Made by a program: the position numbers and the translations under genes. Positions 39,106 to 49,342 of a DNA stretch of 64,000 bases are shown here, one piece after another (the stretch's first letter is position 1; each line of letters begins with the position of its first letter). This stretch comes from Archangium primigenium. GTDB taxonomy: Bacteria > Myxococcota > Myxococcia > Myxococcales > Myxococcaceae. The stretch spans positions 5,828,001 to 5,892,000 of the forward strand of contig NZ_JADWYI010000001.1 in the NCBI RefSeq assembly GCF_016904885.1, written 5' to 3'. The notes beneath the pieces are model-generated. The model saw only the letters and a program-made list of their open reading frames with translations, was not told where the DNA came from and searched no databases.

Positions 39106-39735
39106 TCAGCGCTGCTTGAAGAGCACCGTGTCCACGGCCGGGCACTGCACGGTCATGGGCTGGAACTTGTCCATGGGCCGGCCCACCTGCGACAGGTCCG
39201 GCGCCACGTCGATCAACTCCCCGCGGAAGGCGATGCGGTACGTGCCGGGCTTGCTCAAGTCATAGGCCTTGCTCAGGTCCACCGTGGCGTCCACCGAGCC
39301 GCCCGGCGAGAGCATGACGTAGTTCTCCGCCGTGGGGGCGGCGCGCTTCACCATGGGCCCCTGGTAGGGCACCTCGGCGCCGTCCCGGGTGATCTCGAAG
39401 TCCCTGCCCTTCATGCCCTCGAGCGGCGTGCGCCAGTTGAGCACGAACGCCGGGCCCTTCATGGGGTTGGACAGCGTGAAGCGCAGCTCCACCGGCCCCC
39501 CCAGGGGCAGGTTCGGCGCCACGCTGATGGCGCACTCCAGGGTCGTCTTCACCACGGCGGGCTCCTCCGGGGGCGTCGGCGCGGCGGGCGCCGGCGCGGC
39601 CTGTTCCACGGGCTGTTGCGTGGCCTTCGGCTCGGTCGCCCGCACCTCGGGCTCCTGGCGCTTGCAGCCCCCCGTGGCCGACACCAGCAGCCCCAGGGCG
39701 ATCCAACCAGCACATCCACGAGTCATCGGGCGCAT
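39106..39735 (-). CDS. Lipoprotein resembling the N-terminal domain of the adjacent M35 protease
   Basis: 209 residues from ATG 39735 (AGAGGG lies just before). Signal peptide with lipobox SATGGC (Cys near 24), Pro/Ala/Glu-rich linker to about 55. The body, VELRFTLSNPMKGPAFVLNW, FEITRDGAEVPYQGPMVKRA, and AYDLSKPGTYRIAFRGELID, matches block by block residues about 60-160 of the protease encoded upstream (LLKWYVPGSGSVPAGLFEVT, GPHVKRVAPRPEDFITLAAG). It lacks any HExxH motif, so it is the immunoglobulin-like pro-domain alone. It could be an inhibitor, chaperone or decoy for the protease; that is inference. Confidence 0.82.
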   Translation of the reverse strand: MRPMTRGCAGWIALGLLVSATGGCKRQEPEVRATEPKATQQPVEQAAPAPAAPTPPEEPAVVKTTLECAISVAPNLPLGGPVELRFTLSNPMKGPAFVLNWRTPLEGMKGRDFEITRDGAEVPYQGPMVKRAAPTAENYVMLSPGGSVDATVDLSKAYDLSKPGTYRIAFRGELIDVAPDLSQVGRPMDKFQPMTVQCPAVDTVLFKQR

Positions 39736-39748
39736 GTTCCCTCTTGGG

Positions 39749-39780
39749 AAAAAGAAAAACGGGAGCGTCGCCGCTCCCGT
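39749..39780 (-). terminator. Strong Rho-independent terminator after the M35 protease
   Basis: On the minus strand ACGGGAGCG, a 4-base loop and CGCTCCCGT make a perfect 9-bp stem followed by TTTTTCTTTTT. It lies 37 bp after the protease stop and only 14 bp before the start codon of the pro-domain lipoprotein, so most protease transcripts should end before that gene. Confidence 0.88.
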
Positions 39781-39816
39781 TCGTCCCAGCAACTACTTTG
39801 GCGCGAGCGCCCCGGA

Positions 39817-40917
39817 TCACAGCTTGGGGTTGTTCTCCGCGATGTACTCGTGGTTGTCCGCGTTATCCAGCGCCTTGGTGGGGCTGCTCTTGGCCAGGCT
39901 CTTGGCCGAGGTCTGGCCGTAGGCGTGGTCGTCCGTGGCCGCCACGATGTTGAAGTGGCTCATCTCGTGCACCAGCGTGCCCGCGCGCGAGTCCGTGCCC
40001 GTGTTGCCCGCGCTCCAGAAGGCGCCGCACACGTAGATCTTGTAGGGCGAGGCCGGGTACACGTAGGCGTAGGTGCCCGAGTCCGTGCAGCTGCAGTCCA
40101 CGCGCACCGCCGCCGAGGCGAAGGCGTTCTTGATGGCCGTGAAGTGGTTGCGCGCGGTGGTCAGGTTGGTGCTCGAGTACGCGCCGAACCAGGTGGTGTA
40201 GCGCGTGGCGCCCGAGGAGATGCCGTTGAGGAAGCTCGAGGTCTCGTTCGCGTACGTCTGGGCCGAGGCGAACGCCGTGGAGATCTGCGAGGCGCGGGTG
40301 CTCGAGCAGTTGCTCTCCGACGTGAGCCCCTGGGCGGACACGCCCTGGGCCTGGAGCTCGGGCTGACGGCCGGCGCGGCCCTCGATGAACAGGCTCACCA
40401 CGTTGGAGTCCAGCGCCGCGGTGCGCGTGAGCACCACGTTGTGCTGGTTGATCGTCTGCGCGGCGAAGCGGATGGCGTACGTGCCGCTCTGGCGCAGGTC
40501 ATACATGTCCGACAGGGACGTGGTGCGCGACAGGCTCTCGCCCGCGGCCAGGGTGATGAAGTCCTCGGGGCGCGGCGCCACGCGCTTGACGTGGGGGCCC
40601 ACGAAGTCGACCTCCTCGCCATCGCGCGTCACCTCGAAGAGGCCCGCCGGCACGCTGCCGCTGCCCGGCACGTACCACTTGAGCAGCTGCACGGGCTGCG
40701 AGGACAGGTTGGTGTAGGTCACCGTGACGACGGCGTCCTGGGTCGCGCTCAGCGAGCCGCTCGCCACGGACAGGCTCACGGCGATGTCACCCACGGCCTG
40801 TTCGGTGAGCTGCTGCGAGGCGTCTTCCCCCTCCATGGGCGCGCCGCACGCACCCAACAGGGACACTCCAACGATTCCCCCGACCAGCCACTTGAAACCG
40901 CGAACGTTCTGGCTCAC
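39817..40917 (-). CDS. Secreted M35-family (deuterolysin/peptidyl-Lys type) metalloprotease
   Basis: 366 residues from GTG 40917. Signal peptide with lipobox LLGAC (Cys near 24). Residues 40-165 are a beta-sandwich pro-domain shared with the downstream lipoprotein gene. The catalytic domain (about 200-366) has the zinc motif HEMSH (317-321) and the aspzincin signature ATDDHAYG (Asp330 as third ligand), which defines M35. Paired Cys (SNCSST, DCSCTDS, IYVCGAF) suggest disulphides. It probably digests prey proteins outside the cell. A stable hairpin lies in its leader (40939-40967). Confidence 0.93.
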   Translation of the reverse strand: MSQNVRGFKWLVGGIVGVSLLGACGAPMEGEDASQQLTEQAVGDIAVSLSVASGSLSATQDAVVTVTYTNLSSQPVQLLKWYVPGSGSVPAGLFEVTRDGEEVDFVGPHVKRVAPRPEDFITLAAGESLSRTTSLSDMYDLRQSGTYAIRFAAQTINQHNVVLTRTAALDSNVVSLFIEGRAGRQPELQAQGVSAQGLTSESNCSSTRASQISTAFASAQTYANETSSFLNGISSGATRYTTWFGAYSSTNLTTARNHFTAIKNAFASAAVRVDCSCTDSGTYAYVYPASPYKIYVCGAFWSAGNTGTDSRAGTLVHEMSHFNIVAATDDHAYGQTSAKSLAKSSPTKALDNADNHEYIAENNPKL

Positions 40918-43710: not shown

Positions 43711-43944
43711 TCACGGCATGGCGGGACGATTCGGCGGCCGCCGGTGCCGGGAGAGCCGTGCCGCGACGATGGCGAAGGCCACGACGGCCACCGCCAGGAT
43801 CGCCACCCAGGCCCAGAGCAGGGGGCTGTGGACCACCTCCTGGTTCATCGACTCGCCCGCGGCTGGCATCCCCTGCGCGAAAGCCACCAGGGGAGCGAGC
43901 AGCAACAGCATCCAGGCCGGAACCCACCGTGTGTGTGTCATCAT
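43711..43944 (-). CDS. Small membrane protein
   Basis: 77 residues from ATG 43944 (second Met follows directly). Signal peptide WMLLLLAPLVAFAQG, a short polar part GMPAAGESMNQEVVHSP, one transmembrane helix LLWAWVAILAVAVVAFAIVA, then a basic tail RLSRHRRPPNRPAMP. It is divergent from the giant kinase gene (121 bp between starts). Conserved function is unknown; the topology (short periplasmic part, one helix, basic tail) would suit a sensor accessory. Confidence 0.6.
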   Translation of the reverse strand: MMTHTRWVPAWMLLLLAPLVAFAQGMPAAGESMNQEVVHSPLLWAWVAILAVAVVAFAIVAARLSRHRRPPNRPAMP

Positions 43945-44065
43945 GCGGGGACACTGGGCATGTCCCGTGGTGCCCACAAGAAGGGTGAGGCCGAGCCCCC
44001 GCTCCGGCCTCCCTCCTGGCTGGCTGCCCGCTTCCTTCCCCCTTGGACCCCCGTTCCCCCACGGC

Positions 44066-47000
44066 ATGTTGAACATTCCCGGATACACCCTGCGAGGAGC
44101 CATCAAGGCCACGGGCTCCAACCTGCTCTTCCACGCGGTGAGTGACGCGCACGGCACGCCCCTCATCCTCAAGACGCCCGTCAGCTCGGCGCTGGGCCCC
44201 CTGGCCATCGAGCGCTACCGCCGGGAGTTCCGCATCCTGGAGCGTCTTCAGGACGTGCGGGGTGTCACGCGGGTGCACGCGTGCGAGCTGCGCCAGGAGC
44301 GGCCCCTGCTGCTCCTGGAGGCGGTGGAGGGGCAGCCCCTGTCCGAGCTGGTGGGCCGTCCCTTCGAGGTGGCGCGTGCCCTGGAGCTGGCGTTGTCGGT
44401 GACCGGCACCCTGGCGGAGCTGCACCGCCGGGGGGTCATCCACAAGGACATCAAGCCCTCCAACATCATCGTCACCCCGTCCGGGGAGACGCGGCTCATC
44501 GACTTCGGCACCGCCACGCTCCAGCGCGTCGAGCACGTGGAGGCCGCCCCACCCTCGTTGATCGAGGGCACGCTGGCCTACCTCTCCCCGGAGCAGACCG
44601 GCCGGATGAACCGCGCGGTGGACTACCGCACGGACCTCTACTCCCTGGGCGTCACCCTCTACGAGCTGCTCACGGGCAGCCGGCCCTTCCAGGGGGCCGA
44701 CGCGCTCGAGTGGTTCCACGCTCACATGGCCCAGGCGCCCCAGCCGCCCCACGAGCGGGTGCCGGGCCTGCCCACCGCCCTGTGCGGCATCGTCCTCAAG
44801 CTGCTGGCCAAGGTCGCCGAGGAGCGCTACCAGAGCGCCGAGGGGCTCAAGGCGGACCTGGAGCGCTGCCGGGACAACCTGCCGCGCGGCCTCGACGAGG
44901 ACTTCCCCCTCGGGGTGCACGACTTCCCCTCGCGCTTCCAGCTGCCCCAGCGGCTCTATGGCCGGGACGCCGAGGCCCAGGCGCTGCTCGAGGGCCTGGA
45001 GCGCGTGTCGCGCGAGGCCCGGCCGGAGCTGTTCGTCATCCAGGGCTACTCGGGCATTGGCAAGTCCGCCCTGGTGCACGAGCTGCACAAGCCCGTCGTG
45101 CGTCAGCGGGGCTTCTTCCTGCATGGCAAGTTCGACCAGTTCCGGCGCGACATCCCCTACGCCACCATCGCCCAGGCCATCCGGGGACTGACCCAGCAGT
45201 TGCTGGCGAGCACCGACGAGGAGCTGGCGCGCTGGAGCCAGCACCTGCGCGACGTCTGGCAAGGCCATGGCCAGGTGCTCGTGGACGTGGTGCCGCAGTT
45301 GGAGCTCGTCGTCGGCGCGCAGCCCTTCGTTCCGGAGCTGCCCCCGGCCGAGGCCCGGCACCGCTTCAACCGCGTCTTCCGCCAGTTCCTCGGCGTGTTC
45401 TCCACGTCCGAGCACCCCCTCGTCCTCTTCCTGGATGACTTGCAGTGGGCGGACCTGTCCAGCCTCCAGCTCATCCATCACCTGCTCACCCACCCGGAGA
45501 CGCCGCCCGTGTTGCTCATCGGCGCCTACCGCGACAACGAGGTGGGGCCCGCCCACGCGCTCTTTCAGACGCTGGCGGGGCTGAGCCACGCGGGGGCGCG
45601 CCTGAACGAGCTGCGGCTCGAGCCGTTGAGCCTGGAGGACGTGGGCCAGCTCGTCACGGACGCCCTGCCCGGCGCGGGCCCCGCGGTCGTCGCGCCCCTG
45701 GCCACCCTGGCGCGCGAGAAGACGGACGGCAACCCCTTCTTCCTGCTGCAGTTCATGCTGACGCTCCACCAGGACGGGCTCCTGGTGCGCACCCCCGAGG
45801 GCCGCTGGCGCTGGGACGCCGAGGCCATCCGCGCCCGGGGCTACTCCGACAACGTCGTGGACTTCATGGCGGGCAAGCTGCGCCAGCTGCCGCGCGACAC
45901 GCTGCACCTGCTGCGGCTCGCCGCCTGCGTGGGCACGGCCGTCGCCCCGTCCATGCTCGCGCTGCTCTCCGGGCGCTCGGACGCGGAGGTGGACGTGGGC
46001 CTGGAGCCCGCGCTGCGCGAGGGCCTGCTCACGCGCGCCCGGCCCGAGGAGCGCTACCGCTTCCTGCACGACCGCATCCAGCAGGCGGCCCATGCCCTCA
46101 TCCCGGACGAGGAGCGCCAGGCGGTGCACCTGCGCATCGGCCGGTTGATGCTCGAGCGGCTCCCACCCGAGGACGTGGAGGCGCGGCTCTTCGACATCGC
46201 GAGCCAGTTCAACGCCGGCGTGGACTTGCTCGACGACGGCGCCGAGCGGCTGCGCGTGGCGCGCCTGAACGCCGAGGCCGGACGCAAGGCCAAGGCCTCC
46301 ACCGCCTTCGACTCGGCCCTCACCTACCTCGCCATGGCCGCGCGGCTCCTGCCCGACGCGCCGTGGGAGCACGAGCCGGCCCTCACGTTCCAGATCCAAC
46401 TGGACCGGGCCCAGTGCGAGCTCATGAGCGGCCACGGCGCCGAGGCCCGGGCGCTGGTGGAGGAGCTGCTGCCCCGGGCCCGGACCCGGCCGGAGACCGC
46501 GGCCGTCTACCGCCTCAAGAGCAGCATCCACGTGGCCAGCAGCCAGGTCCCCGCGGCCATCGCCTGCCTGGTGGAGTGCCTCACGCAGATGGGCGTGCCC
46601 ATGTCGCCCCAGCCCACCTGGGACGAGGTGCGCGAGGCCAACGAGGAGGTGTGGGCCCTGCTCGGCGCGCGCTCCATCGAGAGCCTGGTGGAGCTGCCGC
46701 GCATGGGCGATCCGGACATGGAGGCGGTGATGAGCGTGCTCGGCGCCCTGTTCGCCCCCGCGTACTTCACCGACACGCGGCTGCTCATCGTCAGCCTGTG
46801 CCGCATGGTGGCGCTGAGCATCCGCCACGGCAACAACGGCTTCTCCGCCCAGGGCTACGCCTGGTACGGCGTGGTGCTCGGCCCCACCTTCAAGCGCTAC
46901 CCGGAGGCCCACCGCTTCGGCCAGCTCGCCTGGGCCGTCATCGAGCGCCACGACATCGCGCACATGCGCGGCAAGGTGCTCTACATCCTCGAGGTCCTCA

Positions 47001-49342
47001 ACAACTGGACCCAGCCCCTCGGCGACTCCCTGGAGCTGTTGCACCAGGGCTTCCACCACGCGCTCCAGGCGAGTGATCTCCAGATCGCCAGCTTCTGCAG
47101 CAGCCACCTCGTCACGCTGCGGCTCATGCTGGGCCATGATCTGGCGGAGGTGGACCAGGAGTCCGTCACCCGGCTGGCCTTCCTGCGCAAGGCGAGCTTC
47201 CCGGACATGCAGCTCTTGGTGCTCCACATCCAGCGCTACGTGCGGCAGCTGCGCGGCGTATCGCCCTTCGGCACGCTGAGCGGCGAGGACTTCGACGAGG
47301 CGTCCTTCGAGGCCGGCCTGACCCCCGCGCGCATGAGCACCATGCGCTGCTGGTACTGGCTGCTCAAGATGCAGACGCGCTACCTGGCCGGCGCGTATGC
47401 CGAGGCCCTGGAGGCGGGGGACCGGGCCGCGCAGCTCGCGTGGGCCTCGCTCGGGCAGATTCAAATCCTCGACCTGCACCTGTTCCGCGCGCTCACCCTG
47501 GCGGCGTGCTACCCGACGCTGCCGCCCGAGCGGCGCGCCGACGCCCTGCGCCAGCTGCACGAGCACCACGCGCAGCTGGCCGAGTGGGCCACCCACCAGC
47601 CCGACAACTTCCGCGCCCCCGAGCGCATGGCCGCCGCGGAGCTGGCGCGGGTGCTGGGCCGGGACCAGGAGGCCGTGCGCGCCTACGAGGACGCCCAGCG
47701 CGCCGCCCGCGCCCAGGACTTCACCCAGCACGTGGCCCTGTCCTGCGAGCTCGCCGCCCGCTTCTGGCTGGAGCGGGAGCTCGCCACCGTGGCGGACGCC
47801 TACGCCCAGAAGGCCCGGGACGCGTGGGCCCGCTGGGGCGCCCTGGGCAAGGTCAAGCACCTGGACGCGCTCTGGCCCCACCTGGCCAGCTCGCCCACGA
47901 GCGAGGAGACCGTCACGGACACGGAGTCCACGCGCATCGACGCGCTCACCCTGGTCAAGGCCCAGCAGGCCATCTCCGGGGAGATCGTCCTCGAGCGGCT
48001 CGCCGCCACGCTGCTGCGCGCCGCCCTGGAGAACGCCGGCGCCCAGCGCGCGGCCCTGCTGCTGCCCCGGGGCGACAAGCTCGTCGCGGTGGCCGTCGTC
48101 GGGCCCTCGGCCGAGGACGCCACCCCCACGCCCGACGAGCGCCGCCTGCCCTGGACGCTCATCACCTATACGCGCCGCACCCGCGAGCACGTGCTCATCG
48201 GCGACGCGTCCCTGCCCCACGCCTTCTCCCGCGACCCCTGGCTCGAGCGCGGCCGGCCCCGCTCCGTGCTCTGTCTGCCCTTGCTGCGCCAGGAGGAGCT
48301 GCGCGGCGTGCTGTACCTGGAGAACGGCCTGGTCAGCAACGCCTTCACCCCCGCGCGCCTCGGGCTGCTCGGCCAGCTCGCGGCCCAGGCCTCCATCTCC
48401 ATCGAGAACGCCCGCCTCTACGCCGAGGTCCAGCGCGCCGAGGCGGCGCTGCGCGGGGCCAACGACGCCCTGGAGAAGCGCGTGGAGGAGCGCACGCTCG
48501 AGCTCAAGCGCGCCCAGGCGCGGCTGGTGGGCGCCGCCCGCGCGGCCGGCATGGCCGAGGTGGCCTCCAACGTGCTGCACAACGTGGGCAACGTGCTCAC
48601 CAGCGCCGTCGTCAACCTGCAGACCATGACCGAGACGGTGAGCGCCTCGCGCATGGGCCGCCTCAAGCAGGTCTCCTCCCTCCTGGAGTCGCACGCCGGC
48701 GACCTGCCCGACTTCCTCACCCGGGATCCCCGGGGCGCCCAGCTGCCCGCCTACCTGGGCGCGCTCGGCGATGAGCTGCTGCGCGAGAAGGCGCTGCTGC
48801 AAGAGAGCATGTCCGCGATGGGCAAACACATGGATCACATCCGCGCCATCGTCCAGGTGCAGCAGAACCACACCCGCGGCGCCCTGCTCACCGAGGAGTG
48901 TGATCTGTCCCAGCTCGTCGACGATGCCTTGAGCCTCCAGCTCCCCTCGCTCGTGCGCCATGGCATCGCTGTCTCGCAGGAGCTCACGCCCCTGCCGCCG
49001 GTGCGCCTGGACAAACACAAGGCCCTGCAAATCCTCGTCAACCTCATCAGCAACGCCAAGAACGCCATGCACGCGCTACCCGAGGAGCGCCGGCGGCTGC
49101 ACGTGCGGCTCTCGGCGGAAGGCAGCCTGGCGCGCATCCAGGTGGTGGACAGCGGCATGGGCATCGCCCCGGAGATCCGCGACCGGCTCTTCACCCAGGG
49201 CTTCACCACCCGCGAAGGGGGCCATGGCCTGGGGCTGCACTCCAGCGCGCTCGCGGCGAAGCGGCTGGGCGGCCGGCTCACCCTGGACAGCGAGGGCCCG
49301 GGCCAGGGCGCCACGGCCACGCTCGAGCTGCCGCTCGTGTGA
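44066..49342 (+). CDS. Trifunctional Ser/Thr kinase - ATPase - GAF - sensor histidine kinase
   Basis: 1758 residues from ATG 44066. Residues 8-275: eukaryotic-like kinase, with HRRGVIHKDIKPSNIIV (HKD in place of HRD), LIDFGTATLQR (DFG) and YLSPEQTGR. Residues about 290-700: STAND/AAA ATPase, Walker A GYSGIGKSA near 326 and Walker B LVLFLDDLQWADLSS near 451. Residues 700-1290: helical repeat region. GAF about 1295-1450 (LCLPLLRQEELRGVLYLENG). A coiled-coil linker leads to the phospho-His helix LHNVGNVLTSAVVNLQ near 1504, and HATPase to the end (NLISNAKNAMHA, VDSGMGIAPEI, HGLGLHSSALAAKRLGG). The set matches the multi-domain Hstk-type kinases of cyanobacteria and myxobacteria. Cytosolic; signals and partner unknown. 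Confidence 0.95.
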   Translation: MLNIPGYTLRGAIKATGSNLLFHAVSDAHGTPLILKTPVSSALGPLAIERYRREFRILERLQDVRGVTRVHACELRQERPLLLLEAVEGQPLSELVGRPFEVARALELALSVTGTLAELHRRGVIHKDIKPSNIIVTPSGETRLIDFGTATLQRVEHVEAAPPSLIEGTLAYLSPEQTGRMNRAVDYRTDLYSLGVTLYELLTGSRPFQGADALEWFHAHMAQAPQPPHERVPGLPTALCGIVLKLLAKVAEERYQSAEGLKADLERCRDNLPRGLDEDFPLGVHDFPSRFQLPQRLYGRDAEAQALLEGLERVSREARPELFVIQGYSGIGKSALVHELHKPVVRQRGFFLHGKFDQFRRDIPYATIAQAIRGLTQQLLASTDEELARWSQHLRDVWQGHGQVLVDVVPQLELVVGAQPFVPELPPAEARHRFNRVFRQFLGVFSTSEHPLVLFLDDLQWADLSSLQLIHHLLTHPETPPVLLIGAYRDNEVGPAHALFQTLAGLSHAGARLNELRLEPLSLEDVGQLVTDALPGAGPAVVAPLATLAREKTDGNPFFLLQFMLTLHQDGLLVRTPEGRWRWDAEAIRARGYSDNVVDFMAGKLRQLPRDTLHLLRLAACVGTAVAPSMLALLSGRSDAEVDVGLEPALREGLLTRARPEERYRFLHDRIQQAAHALIPDEERQAVHLRIGRLMLERLPPEDVEARLFDIASQFNAGVDLLDDGAERLRVARLNAEAGRKAKASTAFDSALTYLAMAARLLPDAPWEHEPALTFQIQLDRAQCELMSGHGAEARALVEELLPRARTRPETAAVYRLKSSIHVASSQVPAAIACLVECLTQMGVPMSPQPTWDEVREANEEVWALLGARSIESLVELPRMGDPDMEAVMSVLGALFAPAYFTDTRLLIVSLCRMVALSIRHGNNGFSAQGYAWYGVVLGPTFKRYPEAHRFGQLAWAVIERHDIAHMRGKVLYILEVLNNWTQPLGDSLELLHQGFHHALQASDLQIASFCSSHLVTLRLMLGHDLAEVDQESVTRLAFLRKASFPDMQLLVLHIQRYVRQLRGVSPFGTLSGEDFDEASFEAGLTPARMSTMRCWYWLLKMQTRYLAGAYAEALEAGDRAAQLAWASLGQIQILDLHLFRALTLAACYPTLPPERRADALRQLHEHHAQLAEWATHQPDNFRAPERMAAAELARVLGRDQEAVRAYEDAQRAARAQDFTQHVALSCELAARFWLERELATVADAYAQKARDAWARWGALGKVKHLDALWPHLASSPTSEETVTDTESTRIDALTLVKAQQAISGEIVLERLAATLLRAALENAGAQRAALLLPRGDKLVAVAVVGPSAEDATPTPDERRLPWTLITYTRRTREHVLIGDASLPHAFSRDPWLERGRPRSVLCLPLLRQEELRGVLYLENGLVSNAFTPARLGLLGQLAAQASISIENARLYAEVQRAEAALRGANDALEKRVEERTLELKRAQARLVGAARAAGMAEVASNVLHNVGNVLTSAVVNLQTMTETVSASRMGRLKQVSSLLESHAGDLPDFLTRDPRGAQLPAYLGALGDELLREKALLQESMSAMGKHMDHIRAIVQVQQNHTRGALLTEECDLSQLVDDALSLQLPSLVRHGIAVSQELTPLPPVRLDKHKALQILVNLISNAKNAMHALPEERRRLHVRLSAEGSLARIQVVDSGMGIAPEIRDRLFTQGFTTREGGHGLGLHSSALAAKRLGGRLTLDSEGPGQGATATLELPLV

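Follow-up and report, generated by a model that had tools for sequence, protein, structure and literature searches.

This analysis concerns two neighbouring genes on the minus strand of a 64,000-nucleotide stretch of the Archangium primigenium genome (NCBI RefSeq assembly GCF_016904885.1, contig NZ_JADWYI010000001.1, positions 5,828,001 to 5,892,000; hereafter the window), where the gene of an M35 (aspzincin) metallopeptidase zymogen (39817-40917) is followed, after a gap of 81 bases, by the gene of a predicted lipoprotein of 209 residues (39106-39735). We consider it probable that this lipoprotein, a free-standing homolog of the M35 prodomain, is a dedicated inhibitor of M35 peptidases and in effect an immunity protein. 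A first reading made from the sequence only had pointed out that the lipoprotein resembles the N-terminal domain of its neighbor and has no catalytic motif, and both observations were borne out: 38 of 91 residues were identical between the two (BLASTP, 70.9 bits, E 4e-19), which is far above chance, and the lipoprotein had no HExxH motif on inspection and no M35 match in Pfam. It is thus a prodomain-like domain without a catalytic domain that is encoded beside an M35 protease, and library scans placed it outside every Pfam, NCBIfam and PADLOC family.

Homology, predicted fold and residue hallmarks

The 366-residue zymogen was identified as a member of Aspzincin_M35 (PF14521; 152 bits, cut-off 30; E 1.8e-44). 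Its prodomain (about residues 44-182; 40372-40788) was delimited using the match to AsaP1, the alignment and the structure model, and its catalytic domain (39820-40314) using Pfam, the AsaP1 match and the model. The zinc-binding motif HEMSH is located at 39955-39969, with H, E, S and H invariant in the alignments. H317, E318, H321 and D330 were invariant in 22 aligned zymogens, and the aspartate represented here by D330 is the third zinc ligand in the M35 family. The zymogen aligned with the AsaP1 chain of the solved structure over 311 residues (E 1.4e-78), and the lipoprotein matched AsaP1 only within its N-terminal part (E 1.1e-10; residues 37-126 of the chain), which we take to be the AsaP1 prodomain. 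The AsaP1 zymogen of Aeromonas (PDB 2x3a, 2x3b, 2x3c) shares the architecture of the window zymogen, and the closest relative of the lipoprotein with a solved structure is its N-terminal domain, which in AsaP1 is fused to the peptidase.

An AlphaFold2 model of the lipoprotein was built from 20 homologs. The predicted local distance difference test score was at least 90 in 119 of 209 residues and the beta domain was well predicted from about residue 70; the immunoglobulin-like (Ig-like) beta domain as defined by the sequence and fold matches comprises residues 65-206 (39118-39543). The best solved match of the model was the N-terminal domain of AsaP1 (Foldseek E 3.1e-9; VIA Z score 14.1, root-mean-square deviation (rmsd) 2.7, 123 residues). 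The best match outside AsaP1 was the intracellular proteinase inhibitor BsuPI of B. subtilis (PDB 3isy; Z 8.9, rmsd 3.3, 113 of 117 residues aligned). BsuPI is likewise an inhibitor with a similar beta sandwich over nearly its whole length, but the lipoprotein had no Pfam match to the BsuPI family and the fold score of 8.9 barely exceeds the level common among unrelated beta sandwiches, so this likeness is taken as a hint. The model of the zymogen matched AsaP1 (Z 29.9), the Grifola peptidase (Z 28.2) and deuterolysin (Z 21.8).

The lipoproteins and the zymogen prodomains have in common a loop of the form Y-x-G-x-x-x-K, which according to the alignments is YQGPMVKR in the lipoprotein (residues 124-131; 39343-39366) and FVGPHVKR in the prodomain of the zymogen (residues 105-112; 40582-40605), and the free-standing copies lack the linker that connects to the peptidase. 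Among the residues invariant in all 29 aligned copies were Cys24, Cys68, Cys198, Gly126, Lys130 and Arg131, of which Cys68, Cys198, Gly126, Lys130 and Arg131 also showed no variation in an alignment of 20 copies drawn from Myxococcota and Pseudomonadota. Lys130 was present in 54 of 54 Myxococcales copies from genomes with M35 and in nine of ten copies from genomes without it, the tenth having an aspartate. Cys68 (39532-39534) and Cys198 (39142-39144) are predicted from the alignments to form a disulfide, and this pair was not seen in 52 adjacent zymogen prodomains. Among the Myxococcales zymogens, all 52 adjacent ones and about 15 of the 18 lone ones had the loop lysine of the prodomain, and Gly107 and Lys111 of the zymogen were invariant in 22 of 22 aligned zymogens of a wider set.

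Export signals were assessed using a Prosite-type lipobox pattern instead of a stricter first pattern, which had matched 25 of 58 copies. The signal peptide of the lipoprotein (39664-39735) contains the lipobox cysteine Cys24, followed by a lysine, and that of the zymogen (40846-40917), which is a predicted lipoprotein as well, contains the lipobox LLGAC. Within the Myxococcales, a lipobox was found in 46 of 48 free-standing copies beside M35 and in ten of ten copies without M35 (six copies at contig ends being excluded), and also in the zymogens, namely in 52 of 52 at loci with the lipoprotein gene and in 15 of 18 at loci without it. The membrane tether proposed in the sequence-only reading is thus predicted for the copy in the window, but it is shared by the zymogen and many proteobacterial copies are Sec-like instead; on inspection, a Sec-like signal was visible in L177, L188 and L222 and a lipobox-like one in L269, L270, L271 and L286. 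A lysine after the lipid cysteine occurred only in the window's copy among the 46 M35-adjacent copies with a scored lipobox. Its interpretation as a sign of targeting to the extracellular matrix was rejected, since it is contradicted by data from M. xanthus, where such a lysine is associated with lipoproteins of the inner membrane (8 of 12; passages of PMC3222651).

Conservation and taxonomic distribution of the gene pair

The Myxococcales set comprised 145 genomes, in which matches with E < 1e-30 were counted as free-standing copies (one match under the cut-off was omitted). M35 was found in 56 genomes, the free-standing protein in 63 (64 copies) and both in 54. That the pair is kept together in other myxobacteria, a check named in the sequence-only reading, was confirmed by the readable copies in M35-bearing genomes, all 48 of which immediately followed an M35 zymogen gene on its own strand; six further copies, located at the ends of contigs other than the one with M35, were scored neither as adjacent nor as separate. 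Two genomes had M35 and no lipoprotein, one of them (G092) truly so and the other (G062) with a contig that stops 194 bases past M35.

The lipoprotein gene persists at nine loci without M35 (L066-L074; nine genomes, group g19), as a tandem pair in L068. All nine loci have a peroxiredoxin gene on one flank and a gene for a 306-residue protein on the other, and the same flanks were found in the M35-bearing relatives compared (peroxiredoxin in 7 of 7, the 306-residue gene in 6 of 7), which indicates that the protease was lost from the pair and its partner kept. Both flanks are absent from L080-L082, which belong to other genera, and the pair is thus held together in differing surroundings.

The M35 and lipoprotein genes are separated by a terminator-like GC hairpin with a T tract (39747-39782, minus strand). 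Using a custom script, such a hairpin was detected within 110 bases behind the M35 stop codon in 48 of 48 pairs. Each of ten dinucleotide shuffles gave 6-10 of 48 and the opposite strand gave 3 of 48; lone M35 genes were followed by a hairpin in 6 of 18 cases and the lipoprotein gene in 0 of 64, and none was found upstream of the lipoprotein gene at the nine loci without M35. A sigma-70-like promoter was not found, which tells little for myxobacteria. The hairpin may determine how much inhibitor is made relative to enzyme, or it may just end the M35 transcript while the partner is expressed from its own promoter.

Outside the Myxococcota, 57 loci were examined in a survey of named genomes that covered the best 80 of 274 M35 relatives and was not a random sample. 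An adjacent free-standing homolog was present at 27 of these loci and absent from 28, and the flank was too short at two. Eleven of the 27 were encoded on the same strand as M35 and 16 were convergent, all of the latter in Oxalobacteraceae. The pair was seen in Burkholderiales, Neisseriales, Aeromonas and Pseudoalteromonas, sometimes in convergent orientation. In Aeromonas caviae (L298:1952-3467) a free-standing copy (E 2.7e-34) adjoins the 3' end of an AsaP1-like zymogen gene, and we know of no report of a stand-alone copy behind this gene; the feature table of the record lists no gene across the stretch. In Pseudoalteromonas the copy beside M35 (E 9.1e-27) is annotated as a hypothetical protein. 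At four further loci (L136, L225, L231, L240) M35 zymogen genes were arranged in tandem with no free-standing partner in the available stretch.

Evenly drawn samples were taken from the class of a Dokdonella genome (369 genomes) and from the order of a Massilia genome (349 genomes), and M35 was found in 15 and 19 genomes, respectively. An adjacent copy accompanied M35 with a fused prodomain at 7 of 15 loci in the former and 12 of 15 in the latter, and the copies in the Dokdonella class were upstream at six loci, one of them doubtful. Among the loci counted are some that overlap within one genome (L262/L272, L270/L274, L282/L294), and three and two loci of the two samples, at which the catalytic domain was not called, are omitted. 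The free open reading frame (ORF) of L262/L272 contains masked bases and adjoins a catalytic ORF of 159 residues, so it may be a broken zymogen, and without it the 7 of 15 drops by one.

The sequence-only reading had regarded the lipoprotein as a copy of the prodomain of its own protease. For the phylogenetic analysis a quick tree was calculated from 161 of 220 distinct domains that remained after thinning, using few alignment columns and with L260 removed as misclassified. On this tree 45 of the 50 main free-standing rows grouped together, apart from the prodomains, and five fell elsewhere; in the SH-like approximate likelihood ratio test the branch joining the group received a support of 0, and one uniting 42 of its rows 82. 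Recent duplication of the neighbor's prodomain was therefore rejected for most copies, which together with the prodomains form two old groups with weak deep support. The free-standing copy of L257 and its own zymogen arise from the same unresolved fork, and for that pair a recent copy is possible. Faster evolution of the lipoprotein as the signature of an arms race was also considered and dropped as evidence, since the median ratio of nonsynonymous to synonymous substitution rates (dN/dS; 149 genome pairs) was only slightly higher for the lipoprotein (0.62) than for the prodomain and the catalytic domain (0.55); an earlier run with 1128 more distant pairs gave a saturated value of 0.68.

Homologs in the immunity position of type VI secretion loci

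Homologs of the lipoprotein were also identified behind M35 toxins of type VI secretion loci. In L289 the M35 domain forms the C-terminus of a VgrG protein (Phage_GPD, Phage_base_V, Gp5_trimer_C, PF14521) in which no prodomain was found, and the gene that comes immediately after it codes for a free-standing homolog with an export signal (profile A3, E 5.6e-23). In L291 a weak PAAR match (17.9 bits, cut-off 27) precedes an M35 domain without prodomain, and the homolog follows directly (A3, E 2e-11). A VgrG-M35 gene of Cronobacter (L296; PF14521, 45.1 bits) is followed by a gene that matches A3 with E 8.3e-9, and in E. coli the gene behind VgrG-M35 (L297) matches A3 with E 1.3e-13. Export signals were visible on inspection in the neighbor proteins of L289, L291 and L296. 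The L297 stretch was found in 3 of 5426 complete E. coli genomes and lies within a type VI cluster that also contains tssM and a gene with a TagF domain, the vgr gene being annotated as incomplete.

Since profile A3 was built from Myxococcota alone, its matches in L289, L291, L296 and L297 are independent. Profile A4 includes the sequences of L289 and L291 and is circular for them, and scores with A3 or A5 are cited instead. In 2000 shuffles of the four neighbor proteins the highest score was 10.6 bits, compared with 29.5-75.4 bits observed, and no A3 match better than E 3 was obtained among the other 316 ORFs of the window. HHalign gave probabilities of 96.1 for L297 and 89.7 for L296 with A3, and of 97.1 for L291 with A5. 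In an E. coli plasmid record (L304:2446-4457), a type VI M35 gene is followed by two consecutive, weakly related ORFs, an arrangement that looks like two antidote genes.

In the known systems VgrG2b-PA0261 and Tpe1-Tpi1, as in the window pair, the gene of an M35-type peptidase stands next to that of a small extracytoplasmic protein; some of these partners are lipoproteins and their cysteines are partly conserved, and the partner binds and neutralizes the peptidase. In both P. aeruginosa and E. coli, PA0261 gives protection against the VgrG2b metallopeptidase, to which it binds; the signal peptide of PA0261 is needed, and PA0261 homologs are described as outer-membrane lipoproteins or membrane-anchored proteins (passages of PMC6899460). 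The toxin domain of the VgrG2b type has been called M35 and an E. coli M35 toxin is neutralized by its neighbor (passages of PMC10673891), and the lipoprotein SARI_02726 (DUF7480) partly neutralizes SARI_02727, with which a complex is confidently predicted (passages of PMC12992299). Homologs of the window lipoprotein fill the corresponding slot in L297, L296, L289 and L291. The window pair differs from these systems in that its peptidase has a signal peptide and a prodomain of its own and no type VI parts. PA0261 and DUF7480 entered this comparison by description only: PF24295 (DUF7480) matched none of 369 genomes and none of 14 controls, and the neighbor proteins of L296, L297, L304 and L305 had no match to it. 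We predict that the PA0261/DUF7480 family and the family of the window lipoprotein are the same.

Prodomains are not mentioned in the pertinent passages of PMC6899460, PMC10673891 and PMC12992299, and the word propeptide does not occur in the parts covered of the first and the last of these. In the 2012 survey of polymorphic toxins (PMC3482391), neither M35 nor aspzincin occurs in 300,000 of its 357,715 characters. A published link between M35 prodomains and immunity was not found in the titles and abstract openings listed by literature searches, which does not establish its absence from print.

The M35-lipoprotein locus of the window has genes for an acyl-CoA thioesterase and an amidohydrolase as neighbors. 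Further along, a frame of 1874 residues (43718-49342) contains Ser/Thr kinase, AAA ATPase, GAF and histidine-kinase ATPase domains.

Proposed function and alternative explanations

The protective role put forward in the sequence-only reading is, as far as genome comparison can tell, probably right in kind, considering the conservation of the pair and the type VI immunity slots, but it was too narrow and would have to be widened to a widespread family of candidate M35 inhibitors. We infer binding and inhibition of the peptidase, placement in the envelope, and roles for the loop and the hairpin. The lipid anchor is predicted to hold the lipoprotein in the cell envelope, where its binding partner would be mature M35, set free prematurely or returning from outside, whose active site it would cover as the prodomain does in the zymogen. 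The conserved loop YxGxxxKR is probably presented to a lysine-specific S1' pocket, and the hairpin terminator would pass only part of the transcripts on to the inhibitor gene.

In the Grifola enzyme, the aspartate of the NAD motif and the following glutamate presumably line the S1' pocket. The peptidases of L296, L297 and L305 have a tyrosine in place of this aspartate and their neighbor proteins are without the loop lysine, whereas L289 and L291 keep both, and this small set fits the suggestion that the loop lysine would sit in the S1' pocket as a lock. M35 enzymes of the Lys-N type cleave before lysine, and a myxobacterial Lys-N peptidase, Myxobacter AL-1 protease II, has been described, which is a protein other than the window zymogen (passages of PMC11985622).

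There are precedents for this arrangement in other protease families. Spi of streptococci is a free-standing prodomain-like inhibitor encoded beside the protease SpeB. Propeptide-like inhibitors of the I9 and I29 types are known as well, and propeptide-like inhibitors of other families are named in titles or abstract openings (PMC4089206, PMC6993865). Spi and these inhibitors differ from the window lipoprotein in protease family and in fold, and the domain described here also occurs in type VI immunity slots.

Several observations weigh against a dedicated M35 inhibitor. Partnerless M35 genes are common, as at the 28 of 57 named loci given above; no adjacent copy was found in 15 readable M35 loci of Lysobacterales from the same survey, and in ten genomes without a neighboring copy that were searched whole a free-standing copy was found in none, all matches being in zymogen-sized frames (one per genome, two in one genome). 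The genome of A. primigenium itself has a second M35 zymogen (G000:C1 5976068-5977048) without a free-standing copy beside it, and further M35 genes without a partner are common among the Myxococcales genomes. Conversely, 9 of 63 genomes carry the lipoprotein (ten copies) with no M35 found and with no indication that selection on the gene is relaxed. The two genes thus do occur apart, which goes part of the way towards the refutation named in the sequence-only reading, namely that either gene is found without the other as a rule. Among the type VI loci, the M35 domain of L297 scored 28.5 bits, just under the cut-off of 30, and its neighbor has no export signal visible on inspection in the annotated frame; two further E. 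coli type VI loci matched weakly (5.1e-6 and 0.004), and no partner match was obtained at 10 of 17 further M35 loci (L266-L268, L290, L292, L293, L295, L300-L302), which means that the partner either is not universal or has diverged past recognition. A membrane anchor was, on inspection, not general among the proteobacterial copies. Finally, the zymogen model deviated from AsaP1 by an rmsd of 17 over 280 residues; its domains are placed unlike those of the crystal, and the model is no guide to the interface.

The nine genomes without M35, one of them with the tandem pair, suggest that the lipoprotein might mainly guard against the M35 peptidases of other cells, kin or prey, and be kept after the cell's own enzyme is lost, in the manner of orphan immunity genes. 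The median dN/dS of these copies was not raised (0.35; 27 of 28 pairs, from 8 of the 10 copies), so that relaxed selection is not indicated, and the two ORFs in a row behind the E. coli type VI M35 gene point the same way. Since most genomes have their own M35 adjacent, self-protection is the simpler primary role, and we regard defense against foreign M35 as rather unlikely to be the main task, although it is compatible with a dedicated inhibitor.

The same nine genomes, in which the gene is kept under purifying selection, could also be explained by a generic extracytoplasmic Ig-like protein with a task of its own, which shares an ancestor with the prodomain and is paired with M35 through history or regulation and not through binding. 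Related domains whose loop is identical or similar do occur away from M35 in myxobacterial genomes, as short stand-alone proteins (L161, L163) or at the C-terminus of longer ones (L164-L168, L170, L171). The genomes of this wider family in which no M35 was detected are G053, G054, G129, G131-G133, G138 and, with a weak match, G001, while G150, G152, G162 and G163 were outside the M35 search. The loop is therefore not specific to M35 and its conservation alone is no proof of M35 binding, and the domain is older or broader than the pairing. We nevertheless hold this explanation to be improbable, because the adjacency holds across three gene arrangements and several orders, homologs stand behind M35 toxins without a prodomain, and the nine loci without M35 are otherwise unchanged, so that M35 was lost from an existing pair.

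No less improbable, in our view, is a folding helper acting in trans on M35 in the manner of a membrane-anchored foldase: prodomains of many secreted proteases are folding helpers, the gene is downstream of M35 and in one direction in Myxococcales, and the adjacent zymogens are also predicted lipoproteins, but a prodomain is already built into these zymogens (52 of 52 aligned), M35 genomes without the lipoprotein gene exist, and type VI toxins are loaded from the cytoplasm, so that the neighbors of L289, L291 and L296, with export signals on inspection (that of L297, with no visible export signal, being the exception), and, according to passages of PMC6899460, PA0261 would be in the wrong compartment for a folding role.

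Beyond the dedicated inhibitor, we offer as a tentative proposal, possible though short of probable, that one Ig-like M35 prodomain family underlies both zymogens and toxin-immunity pairs, serving as fused prodomain, as second lock beside a zymogen, as type VI immunity protein and as orphan immunity protein. The immunity proteins of type VI M35 toxins would then be prodomains acting in trans, the pairs would stem from a zymogen that was split or borrowed from, and the lock would use the lysine pocket of the enzyme. If these interpretations are right, a function would be assigned to a family whose scanned members go unrecognized by Pfam, NCBIfam and PADLOC, and secreted virulence-type zymogens such as AsaP1 would be linked to type VI immunity proteins, the route to an antidote being the move of a prodomain into a gene of its own. 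They would further predict that peptidases of the Lys-N type, which serve as tools in proteomics, have genetically encoded inhibitors, and that orphan immunity exists in Myxococcus-type bacteria.

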